From Thalassobacillus devorans MSP14 (GTDB lineage: Bacteria > Bacillota > Bacilli > Bacillales > Halobacillaceae): a stretch of 47,185 nucleotides of DNA. The position numbers and the translations under genes are program-made. Below are positions 3,296 through 8,175 of this stretch, one piece after another. A model generated the notes under the pieces. That model was given only the letters and a program-made list of their open reading frames with translations, had not been told where the DNA came from and made no database searches. The DNA is taken from the NCBI RefSeq assembly GCF_000496835.1, contig NZ_KI543236.1, forward strand, positions 1,250,776 through 1,297,960, given 5' to 3'. Within the stretch, counting starts at the first letter, position 1. Each line of letters begins with the position of its first letter.

Positions 3296-4291
3296 TTATC
3301 CTTCTACTGTGAAACCAATCTTTCCAAAGTTTTTGGTATCTCTTAGATACTCGAATGCTTCCTTATATTGAGAAAGCTTGAATACACGATCAAGCTCAGG
3401 TTTAATATCATTGGCAGTGATGAATTCCAGCATTTCCTTGAATTCTTCCGCGCTGCCCATGGTAGAGCCGAGCAGGTTGTACTGCCCATAGAAGAATTTG
3501 CGGATATCGATTTCCACCTCATCTTCGGTAGTGGCACCAAAGGTAACGATCGTACCACCCTTACGGACGACACCAAGAGATTTATTGAAGGTAGCCCGAC
3601 CGATGCTTTCAACTACAAGATCAATTTGTTCATCCTGTAATTCATTGTTCCAATCAGACTGGGTGTTGATTGCACGATCTGCTCCCAGCTTCTTGGCTGC
3701 TTCTAATTTTTCTTCGCTTCTTGAAGTCACGATGACACGTGCTCCCAGAGCTTTAGCGAATTTCAAGGCAAAAGTAAGTACTCCGCTCCCGATACCTGGA
3801 AGCAGTACGGTATCTCCCTTTTTCACTTTTCCCCTTGTGAAAATTACACGATAGGCAGTCAGCGCAGCAAGTGGTAAAACACCTGCTTCTTCCCAGGATA
3901 AATGTGCCGGTTTAGCTTCTACATGGTCGCCTGGTACAACCACATATTCACCAAAAGTTCCATGATCCGGAAATCCCATGATTTCAAATCCTTGCGGCGG
4001 TGCATCGCTGTTTTCTTTCCAGCCTAACCCGGGATTGATAACAACTTCATCGCCCGTTTTGACATTGGTCACACCAGCTCCAACTTCCGTTATCACTCCA
4101 GCACCGTCAGAGCCTAACACCAGTGCCGGCTGATCCGGCTTATGGCGGGAAGTTACAGCAATATCCCTGCGGTTCATGCCAGCTGCTTTCAGCTTTACTT
4201 TTACATTGCCAGGAGTGGTCTCCAGTTCATAAATATCGCGATAGGATAAACCATTCAGACCCTCTTTTCCTTCATGTACGATCGCTTTCAT
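3296..4291 (-). CDS. Zinc-independent medium-chain dehydrogenase/reductase (YogA-like)
   Basis: This 331-residue member of the medium-chain dehydrogenase/reductase superfamily has an N-terminal GroES-like domain with a GSDGAGVITEVGAGV motif near residue 60. Its Rossmann domain has the nucleotide-binding turn LLPGIGSGVLTFALKFAKALGA near residues 163-184 and an SRSEEKL stretch that suggests NADP(H) preference. It contains no cysteine at all, so neither catalytic nor structural zinc of classical alcohol dehydrogenases can be bound; a quinone oxidoreductase or enoyl reductase-type activity is more likely. It resembles B. subtilis YogA. Its ATG overlaps the stop of the ArsA-type gene (ATGA), so it is translationally coupled and is the last gene of the operon. 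A role as the operon's reductase is inference. Confidence 0.85.
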   Translation of the reverse strand: MKAIVHEGKEGLNGLSYRDIYELETTPGNVKVKLKAAGMNRRDIAVTSRHKPDQPALVLGSDGAGVITEVGAGVTNVKTGDEVVINPGLGWKENSDAPPQGFEIMGFPDHGTFGEYVVVPGDHVEAKPAHLSWEEAGVLPLAALTAYRVIFTRGKVKKGDTVLLPGIGSGVLTFALKFAKALGARVIVTSRSEEKLEAAKKLGADRAINTQSDWNNELQDEQIDLVVESIGRATFNKSLGVVRKGGTIVTFGATTEDEVEIDIRKFFYGQYNLLGSTMGSAEEFKEMLEFITANDIKPELDRVFKLSQYKEAFEYLRDTKNFGKIGFTVEG

Positions 4292-5244
4292 ATTTCCGAT
4301 TCCTCCTTGAGATTTTGTTGTATATAGTCTGCGAATACCTGTAGTTTTTCCATATCCGAAACGTCCTCTTCAAATAAAGGCACTTTAATCAGTTTCTGCT
4401 TTGGAAAAGTCTTTTCGATTTGTTGAAGATAATTACTTTCCTGTTTTCTCCGCTTGGCTAAAAATGTACCATCAGCATGTTCAGGCAGTACCTTATTGAC
4501 TACAAGTGTCCTGACATGCAGGTGATATTTATCCAACTGCCTGATAGCCTGTTCGGTTTCCAGAATCGGAAGCCGTTCCGGATTCAGGACAAACAGGAAC
4601 CCTGTTTGGCTGCCGTCCAAAATGATTTCCCGAACGGCAGCGAATTTATTCTTCCTTTTCTGTAAAATTTCATAGATTGGGTCTTCAACCGGCTCGCCGT
4701 CATTCAACAACTGTGTATAATTATCGTTGATTTTCTGTCTCCGTTCCAGCATGCCGTCAATCCAGACACTCATTAATTCAGGTAGTGTCAAGAGACGAAT
4801 CGTATGTCCGGTAGGTGCTGTATCGAAAATGATTTTGTCAAAATCACCTGATTCCTCAAGAATGATAGAAATCAGCCGGTCAAATAAAGCAGCTTCATCC
4901 GCACCGGGAGAAGCACTGGCCATATCGATTTGACGGTGGACTTCTTCTACCATTCTCGATTTGACAATCCCCTGTAAGTTATCCTTCACCCCTTCGATAT
5001 AACGTTTCGACTCCCGTTCCGGATCAACTTCGATCCCCCAGAGATTTTCACCAAGTTTCGTTTTTTCGTGTTTCACTTTTTTATGGAAGATATCCCCTAA
5101 GTTGTGAGCAGGGTCAGTGGAGACAATCAATGTGCTATGTCCCGAGTCAGCCAGCGCAAGGGCAAAAGCCGCAGAGGTCGTTGACTTACCCACCCCTCCT
5201 TTCCCGCCCACAAACAGAATTTTTTTATCATGTAGATTACTCAT
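4288..5244 (-). CDS. ArsA/Get3-type ATPase, single nucleotide-binding domain, cysteine-free
   Basis: This 318-residue soluble P-loop ATPase belongs to the ArsA/Get3 (SIMIBI) group. The deviant Walker A, GGKGGVGKST, is at residues 13-22; a switch I STDPAHN motif is near residue 43 and switch II DTAPTGHT is near residue 140. A PGADEA motif near residue 113 corresponds to the Get3/ArsA PGxDE motif. It has one ATPase domain, unlike the tandem ArsA of E. coli plasmid R773. It has no cysteine, so it lacks the thiolates that bind arsenite in classical ArsA. The soft-metal or thiol chemistry must then lie in its partners: the upstream Sec-Cys candidate and the small protein ending in Cys-Cys. It sits 26 nt after the cory-CC-star-like gene and overlaps the oxidoreductase gene by ATGA. 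Confidence 0.9.
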   Translation of the reverse strand: MSNLHDKKILFVGGKGGVGKSTTSAAFALALADSGHSTLIVSTDPAHNLGDIFHKKVKHEKTKLGENLWGIEVDPERESKRYIEGVKDNLQGIVKSRMVEEVHRQIDMASASPGADEAALFDRLISIILEESGDFDKIIFDTAPTGHTIRLLTLPELMSVWIDGMLERRQKINDNYTQLLNDGEPVEDPIYEILQKRKNKFAAVREIILDGSQTGFLFVLNPERLPILETEQAIRQLDKYHLHVRTLVVNKVLPEHADGTFLAKRRKQESNYLQQIEKTFPKQKLIKVPLFEEDVSDMEKLQVFADYIQQNLKEESEI

Positions 5245-5270
5245 TAGCCAAAAACCCCTTCACTCCATAT

Positions 5271-5537
5271 TTAACAGCAGCGAATTCCGTCCAAAGGAGA
5301 TTTTTCCATCCCCATCCTAAGGTGCCAGTCATGAAACTTTTCTATAATATAAGGATAAAGCTCCAGTGTATAATAAAAGGCAGGATTCGGTATGCCCAGC
5401 ATATCTGAATAGACCAGTAATAAAAATAAGTCATCTTCGTCACGCAGTTCCCTGGCTACTTCATTTTTGTGCGGTAGACTTAAAACTTCATCATAAAGTT
5501 CGAAGAGACGTTTCAGCGAAAACTTTTTATCCGTCAT
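5271..5537 (-). CDS. Small protein ending in Cys-Cys-stop (cory-CC-star type)
   Basis: This 88-residue, probably soluble, mostly helical protein has only two cysteines, and they are its last two residues (DGIRCC then TAA). I recall that NCBI annotation uses the name cory-CC-star protein for small ArsA-associated proteins with this tail; I have not checked this against a database. The central segment has the motif YSDMLGIPNP followed by an aromatic FYYTLELYPY stretch. The ribosome binding site TAGGAGGC overlaps the TAG stop of the upstream selenoprotein candidate, so the two are translationally coupled. The terminal vicinal thiols suggest a metal- or metalloid-binding or redox tail that could hand cargo to the ATPase. 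The stop is TAA, so the tail itself is not a recoding site. Confidence 0.75.
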   Translation of the reverse strand: MTDKKFSLKRLFELYDEVLSLPHKNEVARELRDEDDLFLLLVYSDMLGIPNPAFYYTLELYPYIIEKFHDWHLRMGMEKSPLDGIRCC

Positions 5538-5548
5538 ATTGCCGCCTC

Positions 5549-5926
5549 CTAGGTATATAGTATTTCTTTAATCAGTTTATCATAATTGTTAAAATCCTTA
5601 AGGTATCGGCCATTGATGAATACGGCATTGAATTTGATATGAAGGAAAAAATGGGTGAAGCCCTCCCAGGAGGTGATATTGCCTGCTTTTATATGTTTGA
5701 TGAAATAAGCAGCTATCGAAAGCAGGTTTCTTGGATCTAAAAAACTGATATCTACTTTATCTCCATAATCTATCAAGGTCTGGCGATAGATTTCCCCCAT
5801 ATCTTTCCGATCCTTATCATGATGTTTGAATTCTTCAGACATGGTGATGAGCCCGTCATCACTTATTCCACCACATCATCCCATCCCGATTTCTTTTTCA
5901 GCCCGGATAATTATAATATCAACCAT
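5549..5926 (-). CDS. Candidate selenoprotein (in-frame UGA, Sec17-Cys18), ArsD/thioredoxin-like small protein
   Basis: A conventional gene call gives a 97-residue protein from an ATG at 5842, but that ATG has no ribosome binding site. The same frame is open upstream, except for one TGA at 5878-5876, to an ATG at 5926 preceded at 8 nt by AAAGGAGG. Reading the TGA as selenocysteine gives 125 residues: a hydrophobic strand (VDIIIIRAE), then Gly-Met-Gly-Sec-Cys-Gly-Gly, a charged helix, a second strand (DISFLDPRN), and a C-terminal NAVFINGRYL strand. This order resembles ArsD-type thioredoxin folds, where a Cys-Cys pair follows strand 1. Cys18 is its only cysteine. A SECIS-like hairpin starts 13 nt after the TGA. 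It is the first gene of the operon with the CC-tail protein, the ArsA-type ATPase and the oxidoreductase. The alternative is a nonsense mutation or sequencing error at a Cys codon. Coding is likely; Sec insertion is a hypothesis. Confidence 0.65.
5844..5862 (-). promoter_or_regulatory. SECIS-like hairpin downstream of the in-frame UGA
   Basis: On the minus strand GTGATGA and TCATCAC form a perfect 7-bp stem around the 5-nt loop CGGGC. The stem begins 13 nt, and the loop 20 nt, after the TGA at 5878-5876. Bacterial SECIS elements usually place an apical loop about 16-37 nt after the UGA, with a G among its first two loop bases; here G is the second. Function is inferred from geometry only. Confidence 0.6.
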
Positions 5927-5948
5927 TCCCTGCACCTCCTTTGAAAGA

Positions 5949-5980
5949 GAAAAGCCGCACTATTTACAGCGCGGCTTTTC
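5949..5980 (-). terminator. Hairpin after cstA, weak terminator
   Basis: AAAAGCCGC and GCGGCTTTT pair around a 12-nt loop, followed on the minus strand by TCTCTTTC rather than a pure T run. It fills most of the 60 nt between the cstA stop and the start of the selenoprotein candidate, so partial read-through into that operon is possible. Confidence 0.7.
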
Positions 5981-5986
5981 GGTTTA

Positions 5987-7726
5987 CTAAGCACTTCTCT
6001 CGATACTATCATTTTTATTCATGGCTATTGCAGAGAAAGCGGTGATCAGAATCCAGAAGGTGAATATGAGGATGATCGCACCAAAGCTGAATAACATCCA
6101 GTCACTGGTTTCTGTCCATGGCGCCCATTGTGTAAACACCTGGGAGATCATCGCCCATAAAGTCATAAACATGACGAAAGCCATTGGAATGATCGTCGGA
6201 AGATAGTTCCTGCCATTACGCTTCAGCCAGATGGAAACCAGCAATAAACTGATTCCTGCAAGTAACTGGTTCGAAGTACCGAATAATGGCCATAACAGAT
6301 AACCCCCGGAACCGAACCCTTTTGGCCCTTGTGGAATCAATGTCAGTGCTGCACTGGATACTACAGCAATAGTTGTAGCCACATGCGTTTTTGTAATAGG
6401 CTTGACATTATATTCCATACCAAGTTCAGCAATAATATAACGCATCAATCGTACAGAAGAGTCAAGTGTTGTCGCAGCGAAGCTGACAACGATAACAGAT
6501 ACGATAGTAGCAGCAACTGAAGCCGGAATCCCTAATCCTGTTGCCAACTGGGCAGCACCCTGGATAAAGACTCCCAGTCCTGCACCGCTCGCTGCAGTGA
6601 AACCACTATACGTAGCTGTGAATTCTCCTGCTGTCGGGAAAAATGTAACGACAGCGATAATAGCAATCAAAGCCAGCGCACCTTCACCGACAGAACCTAA
6701 ATATCCTACGAAACGGGCATCCGTTTCTTTATTCAACTGTTTAGATGATGTACCGGAGGAAACTAACCCGTGGAACCCTGAAATTGCACCACATGCAATC
6801 GTGATGAACAGTAACGGGAACCAGGATACATCATTGGCCTGAGGGTTCGTAACCGGTGCAGTGATTTCCGGATTGGTAAATAATAATCCTAAATAAAGAA
6901 TGCCTAAACCGACGATCAACTGATGAGAGTTGATATAATCACGTGGTTGAAGCAGCTTCCATACTGGCAGGGTCGATGCGATGTAGACGTATACCATCAA
7001 CACGATGATCCAAACCAAAAATGCTGCAGAAGTGGCACTCATGCCAAATAAAGCTGTGGCACCTTCTCCTCCGAAATATTTCACCAGGTCGATCTGTAAT
7101 GCCGGAACGTAACTGGAAACGATTGCCGCCAGATACATGACTCCTAAAGCTACTATGGAAGGCAGAAGCATGCTTTTTTTCCTTTTGTATACACTGTAGC
7201 CGATCCAGATAGCTAAAGGAATCTGGATGAACACAGATAACACACTTGCCGGGAAGGAAATGAATAAGTTCGCAATAACCCATGCAAATACCGCATTAAC
7301 CATAAGAACTAACAACAGGATGATGAATAAGAACAACACTTTCGCCCTCTGGCCGATAAGCTTGCTGGCTAATGTACCTACGGACTGCCCTTTATTTCTG
7401 ACCGATAACACTAACGTTCCAAAGTCATGGACACCGGCAGCAAAAACAGTACCAAGAAGCACCCATAATATTGCCGGGAGCCAGCCCCAGTAAACGGCAA
7501 TAGCCGGACCGACAATCGGTGCAGCTCCGGCGACGGATGTAAAGTGATGCCCCCATAAAACGAATTTGTTGGTCGGTACGAAATCTACGCCATCTTTATA
7601 CTGATGGGCAGGTGTTGTGTAATTCGGATCCAACCGGTAAATCTTTTCGGCGATGAACTTGGAATAATATCTATATCCGAGAAAGAAAACAAGACCGCCG
7701 ATAAGCGCTAACCAAATACCACTCAT
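5987..7726 (-). CDS. cstA: Carbon starvation protein CstA (peptide/pyruvate transporter family)
   Basis: This 579-residue polytopic membrane protein has about 15 or more hydrophobic segments. Family motifs include the N-terminal RYYSKFIAEKIYRLD and the conserved stretch GHHFTSVAGAAPIVGPAIAV near residue 60. CstA proteins take up peptides or pyruvate when carbon is short. I placed the start at 7726 (MSGIWLAL) because GGAGGAGGGG lies immediately upstream; the frame is open 11 codons further, but no ribosome binding site is there. A sigma-A promoter (7787-7816) and a near-consensus CcpA operator (7764-7777) precede it, in keeping with catabolite repression of cstA in B. subtilis. A hairpin ends the gene at 5949-5980. 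Confidence 0.93.
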   Translation of the reverse strand: MSGIWLALIGGLVFFLGYRYYSKFIAEKIYRLDPNYTTPAHQYKDGVDFVPTNKFVLWGHHFTSVAGAAPIVGPAIAVYWGWLPAILWVLLGTVFAAGVHDFGTLVLSVRNKGQSVGTLASKLIGQRAKVLFLFIILLLVLMVNAVFAWVIANLFISFPASVLSVFIQIPLAIWIGYSVYKRKKSMLLPSIVALGVMYLAAIVSSYVPALQIDLVKYFGGEGATALFGMSATSAAFLVWIIVLMVYVYIASTLPVWKLLQPRDYINSHQLIVGLGILYLGLLFTNPEITAPVTNPQANDVSWFPLLFITIACGAISGFHGLVSSGTSSKQLNKETDARFVGYLGSVGEGALALIAIIAVVTFFPTAGEFTATYSGFTAASGAGLGVFIQGAAQLATGLGIPASVAATIVSVIVVSFAATTLDSSVRLMRYIIAELGMEYNVKPITKTHVATTIAVVSSAALTLIPQGPKGFGSGGYLLWPLFGTSNQLLAGISLLLVSIWLKRNGRNYLPTIIPMAFVMFMTLWAMISQVFTQWAPWTETSDWMLFSFGAIILIFTFWILITAFSAIAMNKNDSIERSA

Positions 7727-7751
7727 ATAACCCCTCCTCCATTTTCGTACA

Positions 7752-7776
7752 GTAAGCAATCTGTGTATTCGCTTAC
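7752..7776 (-). promoter_or_regulatory. Inverted repeat in the cstA 5' leader
   Basis: GTAAGC and GCTTAC form a 6-bp inverted repeat separated by 13 nt, just upstream of the cstA ribosome binding site. One arm overlaps the cre-like site. It could be a leader hairpin or part of an extended operator. Confidence 0.4.
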
Positions 7777-7777
7777 A
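7764..7777 (-). promoter_or_regulatory. CcpA catabolite-responsive element (cre-like) in the cstA leader
   Basis: The minus strand reads TGTAAGCGAATACA, which matches the cre consensus TGWNANCGNTNWCA at all fixed positions but one (A instead of T at position 10). It lies just downstream of the predicted -10 element, a position where bound CcpA blocks transcription. Confidence 0.65.
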
Positions 7778-7786
7778 TGCAATCTA

Positions 7787-7816
7787 ATTATACTATGAGA
7801 GGTTTCTATCTATCAA
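7787..7816 (-). promoter_or_regulatory. Sigma-A type promoter of cstA
   Basis: On the minus strand a -35 TTGATA (7816-7811) is followed after 18 nt by a perfect -10 TATAAT (7792-7787). The predicted start of transcription is near 7780, leaving a leader of about 55 nt. Confidence 0.75.
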
Positions 7817-7876
7817 TAAAGTTGACTGACTTGTCTAAAAATTCCTTTCATTGTACCAAACCATTATTTTCCCACT

Positions 7877-7900
7877 AAAAAAGCCGCCTCGTTGGAGAGG
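7877..7900 (-). terminator. Terminator half regenerated at the left edge of the inserted element
   Basis: On the minus strand GCCTC and GAGGC flank a 6-nt loop and are followed by GGCTTTTTT. The T run and right arm belong to an older terminator of the LysM/3D gene; the left arm now comes from the target duplication plus the element end. Confidence 0.5.
7888..7897. repeat. Target-site duplication, left copy
   Basis: The 10-bp CTCGTTGGAG is repeated exactly at 8674-8683, on the other side of the deleted IS1182-type element. Confidence 0.8.
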
Positions 7901-8175
7901 CCACTGAAAAAGTCCTTTATAACCTAAAGGGGCTGGCAACGTTTGTTGTTGATTCTCACGAATCGCTTGTCGGTGGATGCTTGCCGCGGGCACGACCTCA
8001 GCTAACTTGGCCAAGTGGATCTTCGGCTCGCGCTGTTCCCGCAGGCGTCACCACCGAACGCTCATCGTGGAATCAACTGAGGGTAAACGAAAAAGAATGA
8101 TTTTCTTTGATTTCTAAAAGAAAGTCACTCTTTTTTCTTGTACAATGAAAGTAATACATAAAAGTGAGGGGTTCG

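Follow-up and report, generated by a model that had tools for sequence, protein, structure and literature searches.

A predicted selenoprotein with an adjacent Sec-Cys pair in the CstA/CC-star/ArsA gene row of Thalassobacillus devorans

YbdD, a small protein of Escherichia coli, belongs to the DUF466 family. CstA-dependent pyruvate uptake in this bacterium needs YbdD as a partner, according to the accessible part of one report (PMC5847655), and DUF466 proteins end in Cys-Cys or, in some Campylobacterales, in Cys-selenocysteine (Cys-Sec), as stated in the portion available of another (PMC4607533). In a related setting, outlined in the accessible text of Castillo and Saier 2010, a single-domain ArsA of ~330 amino acids (aa), CstA and a CstX of ~90 aa are encoded in one operon and co-evolve, and ArsA has been proposed to energise CstA (PMC2963123). 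Here we describe a gene, P0001, in a 47,185-nucleotide stretch of the genome of Thalassobacillus devorans MSP14 (hereafter the window; C1:1250776-1297960 of the 3.9-Mb genome), which is predicted to encode a selenoprotein with adjacent Sec and Cys residues and lies between the genes for CstA and for a cory-CC-star protein (CC-star) that is followed by an ArsA-family ATPase.

The locus thus shares its single-domain ArsA, CstA and small third protein with the described operons; judging from size and gene order, CC-star is most likely the CstX of the literature. However, in the text of Castillo and Saier at hand no thioredoxin-like or Sec-containing fourth part is described for the carbon-starvation operons, and thioredoxins are mentioned only in ars operons (PMC2963123). 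The KCU-star/DUF466 proteins of Campylobacterales resemble the P0001 protein in being small, in exchanging one Cys of a vicinal pair for Sec in some lineages (PMC4607533, accessible part) and in their link to CstA, which runs through the E. coli relative YbdD (PMC5847655, accessible part). Yet Sec is the last residue of the ~70-aa KCU-star protein, whereas the P0001 pair occupies residues 17-18 near the amino terminus. Moreover, none of 42 family members matches the Pfam DUF466 model, and the Cys-Cys-COOH end sits on the separate CC-star protein. The CstA/CC-star/ArsA setting of a selenoprotein is not described in the literature that we examined.

Reading frame, homologues and selenocysteine machinery

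The elements of the candidate gene are as follows.

5549..5926, minus strand: putative selenoprotein gene P0001, 125 aa with Sec at residue 17; predicted thioredoxin-like product containing Gly-Met-Gly-Sec-Cys-Gly-Gly
5935..5942, minus strand: Shine-Dalgarno sequence AAAGGAGG, 8 nt ahead of the ATG at 5926
5876..5878, minus strand: in-frame UGA at codon 17, almost certainly read as selenocysteine, as judged by TGA/TGC/TGT comparison across 40 near homologues
5844..5862, minus strand: putative bacterial selenocysteine insertion sequence (SECIS) hairpin, perfect 7-bp stem GTGATGA/TCATCAC, loop CGGGC

An initial annotation of this DNA had proposed a selenoprotein candidate from an ideal Shine-Dalgarno sequence eight bases before the ATG at 5926, a TGA at codon 17 followed by Cys in a frame that stays open through a 97-residue open reading frame (ORF), the lack of a ribosome binding site at the ATG of that ORF (5842), and a perfect 7-bp stem just before this ATG with its loop CGGGC 20 nt past the UGA. 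All of these elements are found in place. AAAGGAGG occupies 5942-5935, codon 18 is TGT (Cys), and the frame is then open to the TAG at 5551-5549. The conventional ORF spans 5842-5549 (97 aa) with no Shine-Dalgarno sequence seen ahead of its start, and the stem lies at 5862-5844. Judged by eye, a purine-rich stretch occurs at the Shine-Dalgarno place in most homologues, too.

The comparative evidence converges on the same conclusion. Homologues of P0001 were found in 40 of 101 related genomes, the own genome included, the closest named relative seen being Thalassobacillus cyri (93% identical in the P0001 protein). Codon 17 is TGA in ten of these near homologues (G000-G004, G044, G057, G059, G074 and G090) and TGC or TGT in 29; the remaining copy, that of G031, is degenerate, with two TGA and one TAG inside. 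All 39 intact copies have either Sec or Cys at position 17, and R8, G14, C18, G19 and G20 are invariant among them. The similarity extends upstream of the UGA, as a start codon (27 ATG, one TTG) occupies the equivalent upstream position in 28 of the 29 Cys homologues. Across six UGA copies the ratio of nonsynonymous to synonymous change (pN/pS) amounts to 0.26 for codons 2-16, on the basis of 110 synonymous and 95 nonsynonymous differences over 15 non-independent pairs; the part of the gene past the UGA gives 0.33, and the alternative frames give 1.88 and 2.60. By this measure residues 1-16 are under purifying selection. The alignment suggested along with the initial annotation therefore gave the expected picture, namely Cys codons or TGA at codon 17 and conserved residues ahead of it. 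Among the near relatives, all Cys forms (29/29) read CCGGxC and all Sec forms (10/10) UCGGx(S/T). The third Cys, residue 22, is absent from every Sec form, which may point to a different resolving residue.

The genome also encodes the machinery for selenocysteine, the search for which had been named as a check. Outside the window, at a distance of ~54-60 kb, we found a tRNA-Sec with anticodon TCA (C1:1191079-1191171, 61.9 bits, gathering score 47), selB (C1:1192513-1194363, 331.6 bits, cut-off 242.25), selA (C1:1195682-1197046, 525.3 bits, cut-off 267.9) and selD (L078, C1:1194563-1195492, 398.3 bits, cut-off 125). Since selD itself holds an in-frame TGA, in the context KAG-U-GC, at least one other selenoprotein is predicted in this genome. 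A stem of 7 bp with loop CGTGC lies 32 nt past the selD UGA and closely resembles the 7-bp/CGGGC stem of P0001. None of the eight matches to the formate dehydrogenase alpha subunit in the genome has an internal stop.

Beyond the near relatives, a profile search matched 12 of 398 genomes of the class, the own included, and the own genome alone among 398 drawn from the phylum; in both searches only about ten candidates were scored per genome. Two further, distant UGA copies came to light in G119 and G122, both of which have selB. Another TGA at codon 17 occurs in a 45.5% identical copy of Cytobacillus spongiae (NZ_CP089998.1, a 690-kb record from PLSDB), where the UGA is followed by the hairpin GTGGTGACGGGTTCATCAC (-6.2 kcal/mol). 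This brings the UGA copies to 13, comprising ten from near relatives, the two distant ones and that of C. spongiae, and the three extra copies are all from Bacilli. In C. spongiae the row is annotated as 'carbon starvation protein A', WP_233812010.1, 'cory-CC-star protein' and 'ArsA family ATPase'. WP_233812010.1, a 'hypothetical protein', starts at the Met after the UGA, so that in the sole annotated public record found the P0001-type gene is truncated.

The presence of selB follows the UGA. A match over the cut-off was obtained in all ten near UGA genomes as compared with four of the 29 near Cys genomes (G020, G024, G028 and G032). In total, the 12 genomes searched that carry a UGA copy all have such a match, versus 10 of 38 with Cys copies only. 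It is important to note that selB is common among distant Cys genomes (6 of 9 others). On a tree of 42 rows, Sec and Cys must have been exchanged at least four times, and well-supported branches force two of these changes. As a separate observation, the selB match of G032, whose P0001 copy is of the Cys form, is incomplete and has one in-frame TGA (C1:2291498-2292547); the machinery is possibly being lost there.

The SECIS-type hairpin

The hairpin begins 13 nt and its loop 20 nt past the UGA. Published rules for bacterial SECIS elements ask for a stem of 4-16 bp, a loop of 3-9 nt with a G in its first two positions, a UGA-to-loop distance of 16-37 nt and a minimum free energy (MFE) of at most -7.5 (PMC13188914). 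Applying these rules by a script rather than by bSECISearch, we found that the gene in the window complies with them (7 bp, CGGGC, 20 nt, MFE of -11.2 over 57 nt), the bare stem reaching only -6.8; scoring against a bacterial SECIS model had been recommended at the outset. When the gene was shuffled synonymously 20,000 times, a Watson-Crick stem at least as long turned up in 210 cases, and of the 1,950 TGA triplets in the window 14 are followed by one; with G-U pairs allowed the figures rose to 943 of 20,000 and 123 of 1,950. A model hairpin of -5.8 kcal/mol or lower follows 56 of 1,951 window TGA triplets. By itself, the hairpin of the window gene is thus only modestly unusual and constitutes modest evidence. 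A search of positions 5400-6100 against Rfam gave three matches, all far under their gathering scores and none of them to a SECIS model.

Across species the hairpin is not due to chance, because it is present in 13 of 13 UGA copies (stem of at least 7 bp, -5.8 to -8.4 kcal/mol, loop start 20-24 nt past the UGA) versus a hairpin as strong as -5.8 in only two of 39 intact Cys copies. These two, L027 and L028, are near-identical sisters and their hairpins are chance; a further Cys form, L108, comes near the threshold with -5.6. The energy of the 57 nt past the codon does not separate the groups (UGA copies -8.3 to -20.2, Cys copies -5.0 to -20.5). In an alignment of ten sequences (A4) all 70 pair cells are standard, with the basal pair being G-C in six and C-G in four sequences and two other pairs varying to G-U. 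Shuffled controls scored as high for pairing plus covariation in 5 of 500 cases but matched the number of double-change pairs in 455 of 500, so a single pair carries the covariation within A4. Outside A4, the two distant UGA copies keep the hairpin with quite different stem sequences. Recognition of SECIS elements can depend on the species.

Given this pattern, two rival explanations can be weighed. If the TGA were an ordinary stop, the true gene would be the ORF of 97 aa that starts at Met 5842, with the similarity at the amino terminus reflecting a leader peptide or a decaying remnant. That ORF does exist, and the annotators of Cytobacillus picked the same kind of start. Nevertheless, this scenario is very improbable: no Shine-Dalgarno sequence is seen before 5842, both UGA and Cys forms conserve residues 1-16, with a pN/pS of 0.26, an upstream start codon is found in 28 of 29 Cys homologues, and both hairpin and selB go with the UGA. 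A Cys codon misread in sequencing or mutated to TGA in a pseudogene is even harder to credit and can practically be dismissed. Degenerate copies such as that of G031 are known, but the UGA recurs at the same codon in 13 copies, each of them with a SECIS-type hairpin. We consider it almost certain from these comparisons that the UGA at codon 17 is decoded as selenocysteine. SelB and tRNA-Sec would accomplish the decoding, directed by the hairpin 13 nt downstream, and the candidate status given in the initial annotation is borne out.

Fold and family of the predicted protein

The thioredoxin fold is defined by the order beta-alpha-beta-alpha-beta-beta-alpha; in a classical thioredoxin the redox motif is CxxC (or UxxC/CxxU), and a cis-Pro precedes strand 3. 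For the P0001 protein, which is presumably cytoplasmic, structure prediction suggests a thioredoxin-like fold with the Sec-Cys pair in the loop after strand 1; this is a fair prediction, in which the loop bearing the pair has low confidence. The classical features are missing, since Sec and Cys are vicinal, CxxC is absent, and in the branch of the window there is no Pro at 'FNAVFING'; distant members with Cys-Cys only have a Pro at that position. The suggestion of a 'redox or metal site' can accordingly be sharpened to a vicinal Sec-Cys pair in a predicted thioredoxin-like fold within a CstA/CC-star/ArsA row.

Known families do not account for the protein. It has no NCBIfam match at E <= 1, release 20 holding no model for the family, and no Pfam match over the cut-off apart from one chance-looking hit below it (Dna2_Rift, E 0.024). 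Scans of all members returned scattered matches to unrelated families in one to three of 39 or 42 members (best RpoH, E 0.00027, in one member, as ranked by E value rather than by cut-off), and CC-star was matched through two run-on frames. A profile search of PDB sequences with the P0001 family gave nothing significant (best E 0.46), and CstA had no PDB sequence match at E <= 0.001 either. The family fits none of the 119 prokaryotic selenoprotein families and subfamilies of a 2026 review (PMC13188914, Table 1), and we found no paper on a selenoprotein with CC-star or on selenocysteine in Thalassobacillus. Judged against this review and the NCBIfam library, the selenoprotein family appears to be new, its kind being that of the bacterial thioredoxin-like selenoproteins. 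If this holds true, it would add a family absent from the 119-entry inventory and from the models of NCBIfam release 20.

Several described proteins share single traits with it. Sec.1/Sec.2 (PF13192) and SelW-like proteins are thioredoxin-like as well, and PF13192 is touched below threshold by three of 42 members (best E 0.0064) and SelT/W/H by one (E 0.013). However, their motifs are CxU, UxC and CxxU (PMC13188914), whereas Sec and Cys are adjacent in P0001. Two other entries of the review come nearest in motif. The letters of the CopZ-type 2Fe-2S protein form 1 (GxUC) fit some P0001 members, although none of the 42 has such a Pfam match. The same is true of the letters of hypothetical protein DG of Desulfosediminicola (GUxG), as given in the accessible part of its description (PMC12013277). 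Its model, NF049953, gave no match in 42 members, with the presence of this model in our copy of the library being unconfirmed.

The CstA/CC-star/ArsA row and a possible role

The genes around P0001 are the following.

5987..7759, minus strand: CstA family transporter, upstream gene (PF02554, 503.1 bits); ORF listed from a TTG
5954..5970, minus strand: terminator-like hairpin separating cstA from P0001, one of 5 such sites in 4000-8000 (3.2 expected)
5271..5537, minus strand: cory-CC-star protein, 88 aa, ending in GIRCC (NF041419, 129.1 bits, cut-off 80)
4288..5244, minus strand: single-domain ArsA/Get3 ATPase, 318 aa, without Cys (TIGR00345, 301.6 bits, cut-off 135)
3296..4291, minus strand: zinc-type alcohol dehydrogenase-like oxidoreductase, the following gene in some of the relatives

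The real start of CstA is probably an internal ATG rather than the listed TTG. Because of the terminator-like hairpin, joint transcription of cstA and P0001 would need read-through or a separate promoter.

The arrangement is widely kept. Among 41 loci, which correspond to 39 distinct places, 38 have CstA upstream in the same orientation, no CstA match being present in the flanks of L100, L107 and L108; CC-star plus ArsA follow downstream in 32 of 41, the exceptions being L100 and L103-L110. Of the 101 genomes, 63 have a CC-star that scores over the NF041419 cut-off, among them every one of the 40 that carry P0001. From the 23 genomes that have CC-star without a P0001 match we examined 20, leaving out G015, G093 and G097. 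All 20 show CstA, CC-star and then ArsA, with a gap between CstA and CC-star too short for a P0001 gene and with no homologue by tblastn. P0001 is for this reason best seen as an optional addition to a three-gene core.

The distribution of cysteines in the module is sparse. Outside P0001 there are only the last two residues of CC-star and a single Cys in CstA, residue 323 of the ORF as listed, in the motif ACGAISGFH. ArsA has none. All 26 relatives compared retain both the CC tail and the CstA Cys, and the share of Cys stays below 30% at every ArsA column of these 26. The distant CstA proteins found likewise carry the motif ACGA(I/V)SGFH.

P0001 is thus an optional fourth part of the CstA/CC-star (CstX)/ArsA-ATPase module. 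We propose that its Sec-Cys pair would engage in thiol-selenol exchange with the C-terminal Cys-Cys of CC-star and so maintain this tail in a working redox state. Through the CC-star tail, P0001 would then keep CstA transport working; the analogy to E. coli CstA-YbdD suggests pyruvate or peptides as the substrate. While gene structure, decoding signals and gene row are supported by the sequence data, the redox step and its partner are deduced, and the role towards CC-star is a plausible but tentative assignment. Taken as a whole, the explanation that combines Sec decoding, the predicted fold and CC-star as redox partner seems moderately probable.

ArsD has a thioredoxin-like fold in which strand 1 is followed by the vicinal Cys pair, and E. 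coli ArsA possesses metalloid-binding cysteines. The main competitor for the mechanism is an ArsD-like chaperone that hands a metalloid or metal to the ArsA ATPase. ArsD/VcpD proteins share with P0001 the vicinal pair, the thioredoxin-like fold and an ArsA-family neighbour, here encoded two genes on. ArsD appears in the Foldseek list at E 1.8-4.1, and three of 42 members touch the NCBIfam model VcpD, 'ArsD-related vicinal cysteine protein' (best E 0.0022). The P0001 protein differs, however, in that one Cys is Sec and its scores stay far under the VcpD cut-off. P0001 itself has no match to this model, and two touching members reach 17.9 bits (the best shown, in a distant member) and 13.5 bits against a cut-off of 90, no better than a chance-looking exo-glucosaminidase model (three members, E 0.0017). 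The ArsA of the window lacks Cys, and among 26 relatives no column reaches 30% Cys, so that there is no thiolate acceptor and an ArsD-type metalloid relay is unlikely. Distant members, moreover, adjoin CstA without a detectable ArsA. Overall, we regard a chaperone function as improbable.

Alternatively, the selenoprotein could reduce a small oxidant or substrate, such as a peroxide or the disulfide or persulfide of an imported peptide, instead of the proteins of the module. Most characterised selenoproteins are thioredoxin-like redox proteins (PMC13188914), CstA may carry peptides, and in part of the loci a zinc-type alcohol dehydrogenase-like oxidoreductase is the next gene. Yet there is neither a CxxC motif nor a match to a peroxidase family, and the gene order ties P0001 to CstA and CC-star, which makes a small-substrate reductase an unlikely solution, too.

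Building on the proposed thiol-selenol exchange with CC-star, one may go a step further and speculate that CstA transporters depend on a vicinal dithiol relay, which selenium would have entered at least twice in unrelated partners, as the Cys-Sec end of DUF466 in Campylobacterales and as the Sec-Cys protein in Bacilli. The latter would charge or reset the tail of CC-star/CstX and the tail would meet the single Cys of CstA (ACGAISGFH), so that uptake would be redox-gated or proceed via a covalent thiol intermediate; ArsA would provide the ATP-driven step. This generalisation is doubtful as a whole. With the P0001 family it becomes possible to test whether Sec recurs in the partners of one transporter family. 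The CstA/CstX/ArsA module, the mechanism of which is not established in the literature examined, would gain a redox handle, and genomes with the Sec form, with the Cys form and naturally without P0001 can be compared directly.

Some loci deviate from the common pattern. The UGA copy L064 of G057 has an insertion of ~28 residues after the SECIS region, with another CC. In L062:4764-5438 and L069:4107-4730 no stop separates P0001 from CC-star; since an SD-like stretch precedes the CC-star Met, a real fusion is doubtful in both. A distant branch with Cys-Cys only (L103, L104, L105, L106 and L110; e.g. AACCVPFEG) directly follows a CstA that is 36-39% identical to that of the window. Both types occur in G122 (L102 and L103): its UGA copy is part of a CstA/CC-star/ArsA row, and a second CstA precedes its distant CC-only copy. 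Judged by eye, a response-regulator-like frame lies upstream in at least L103 and L105.
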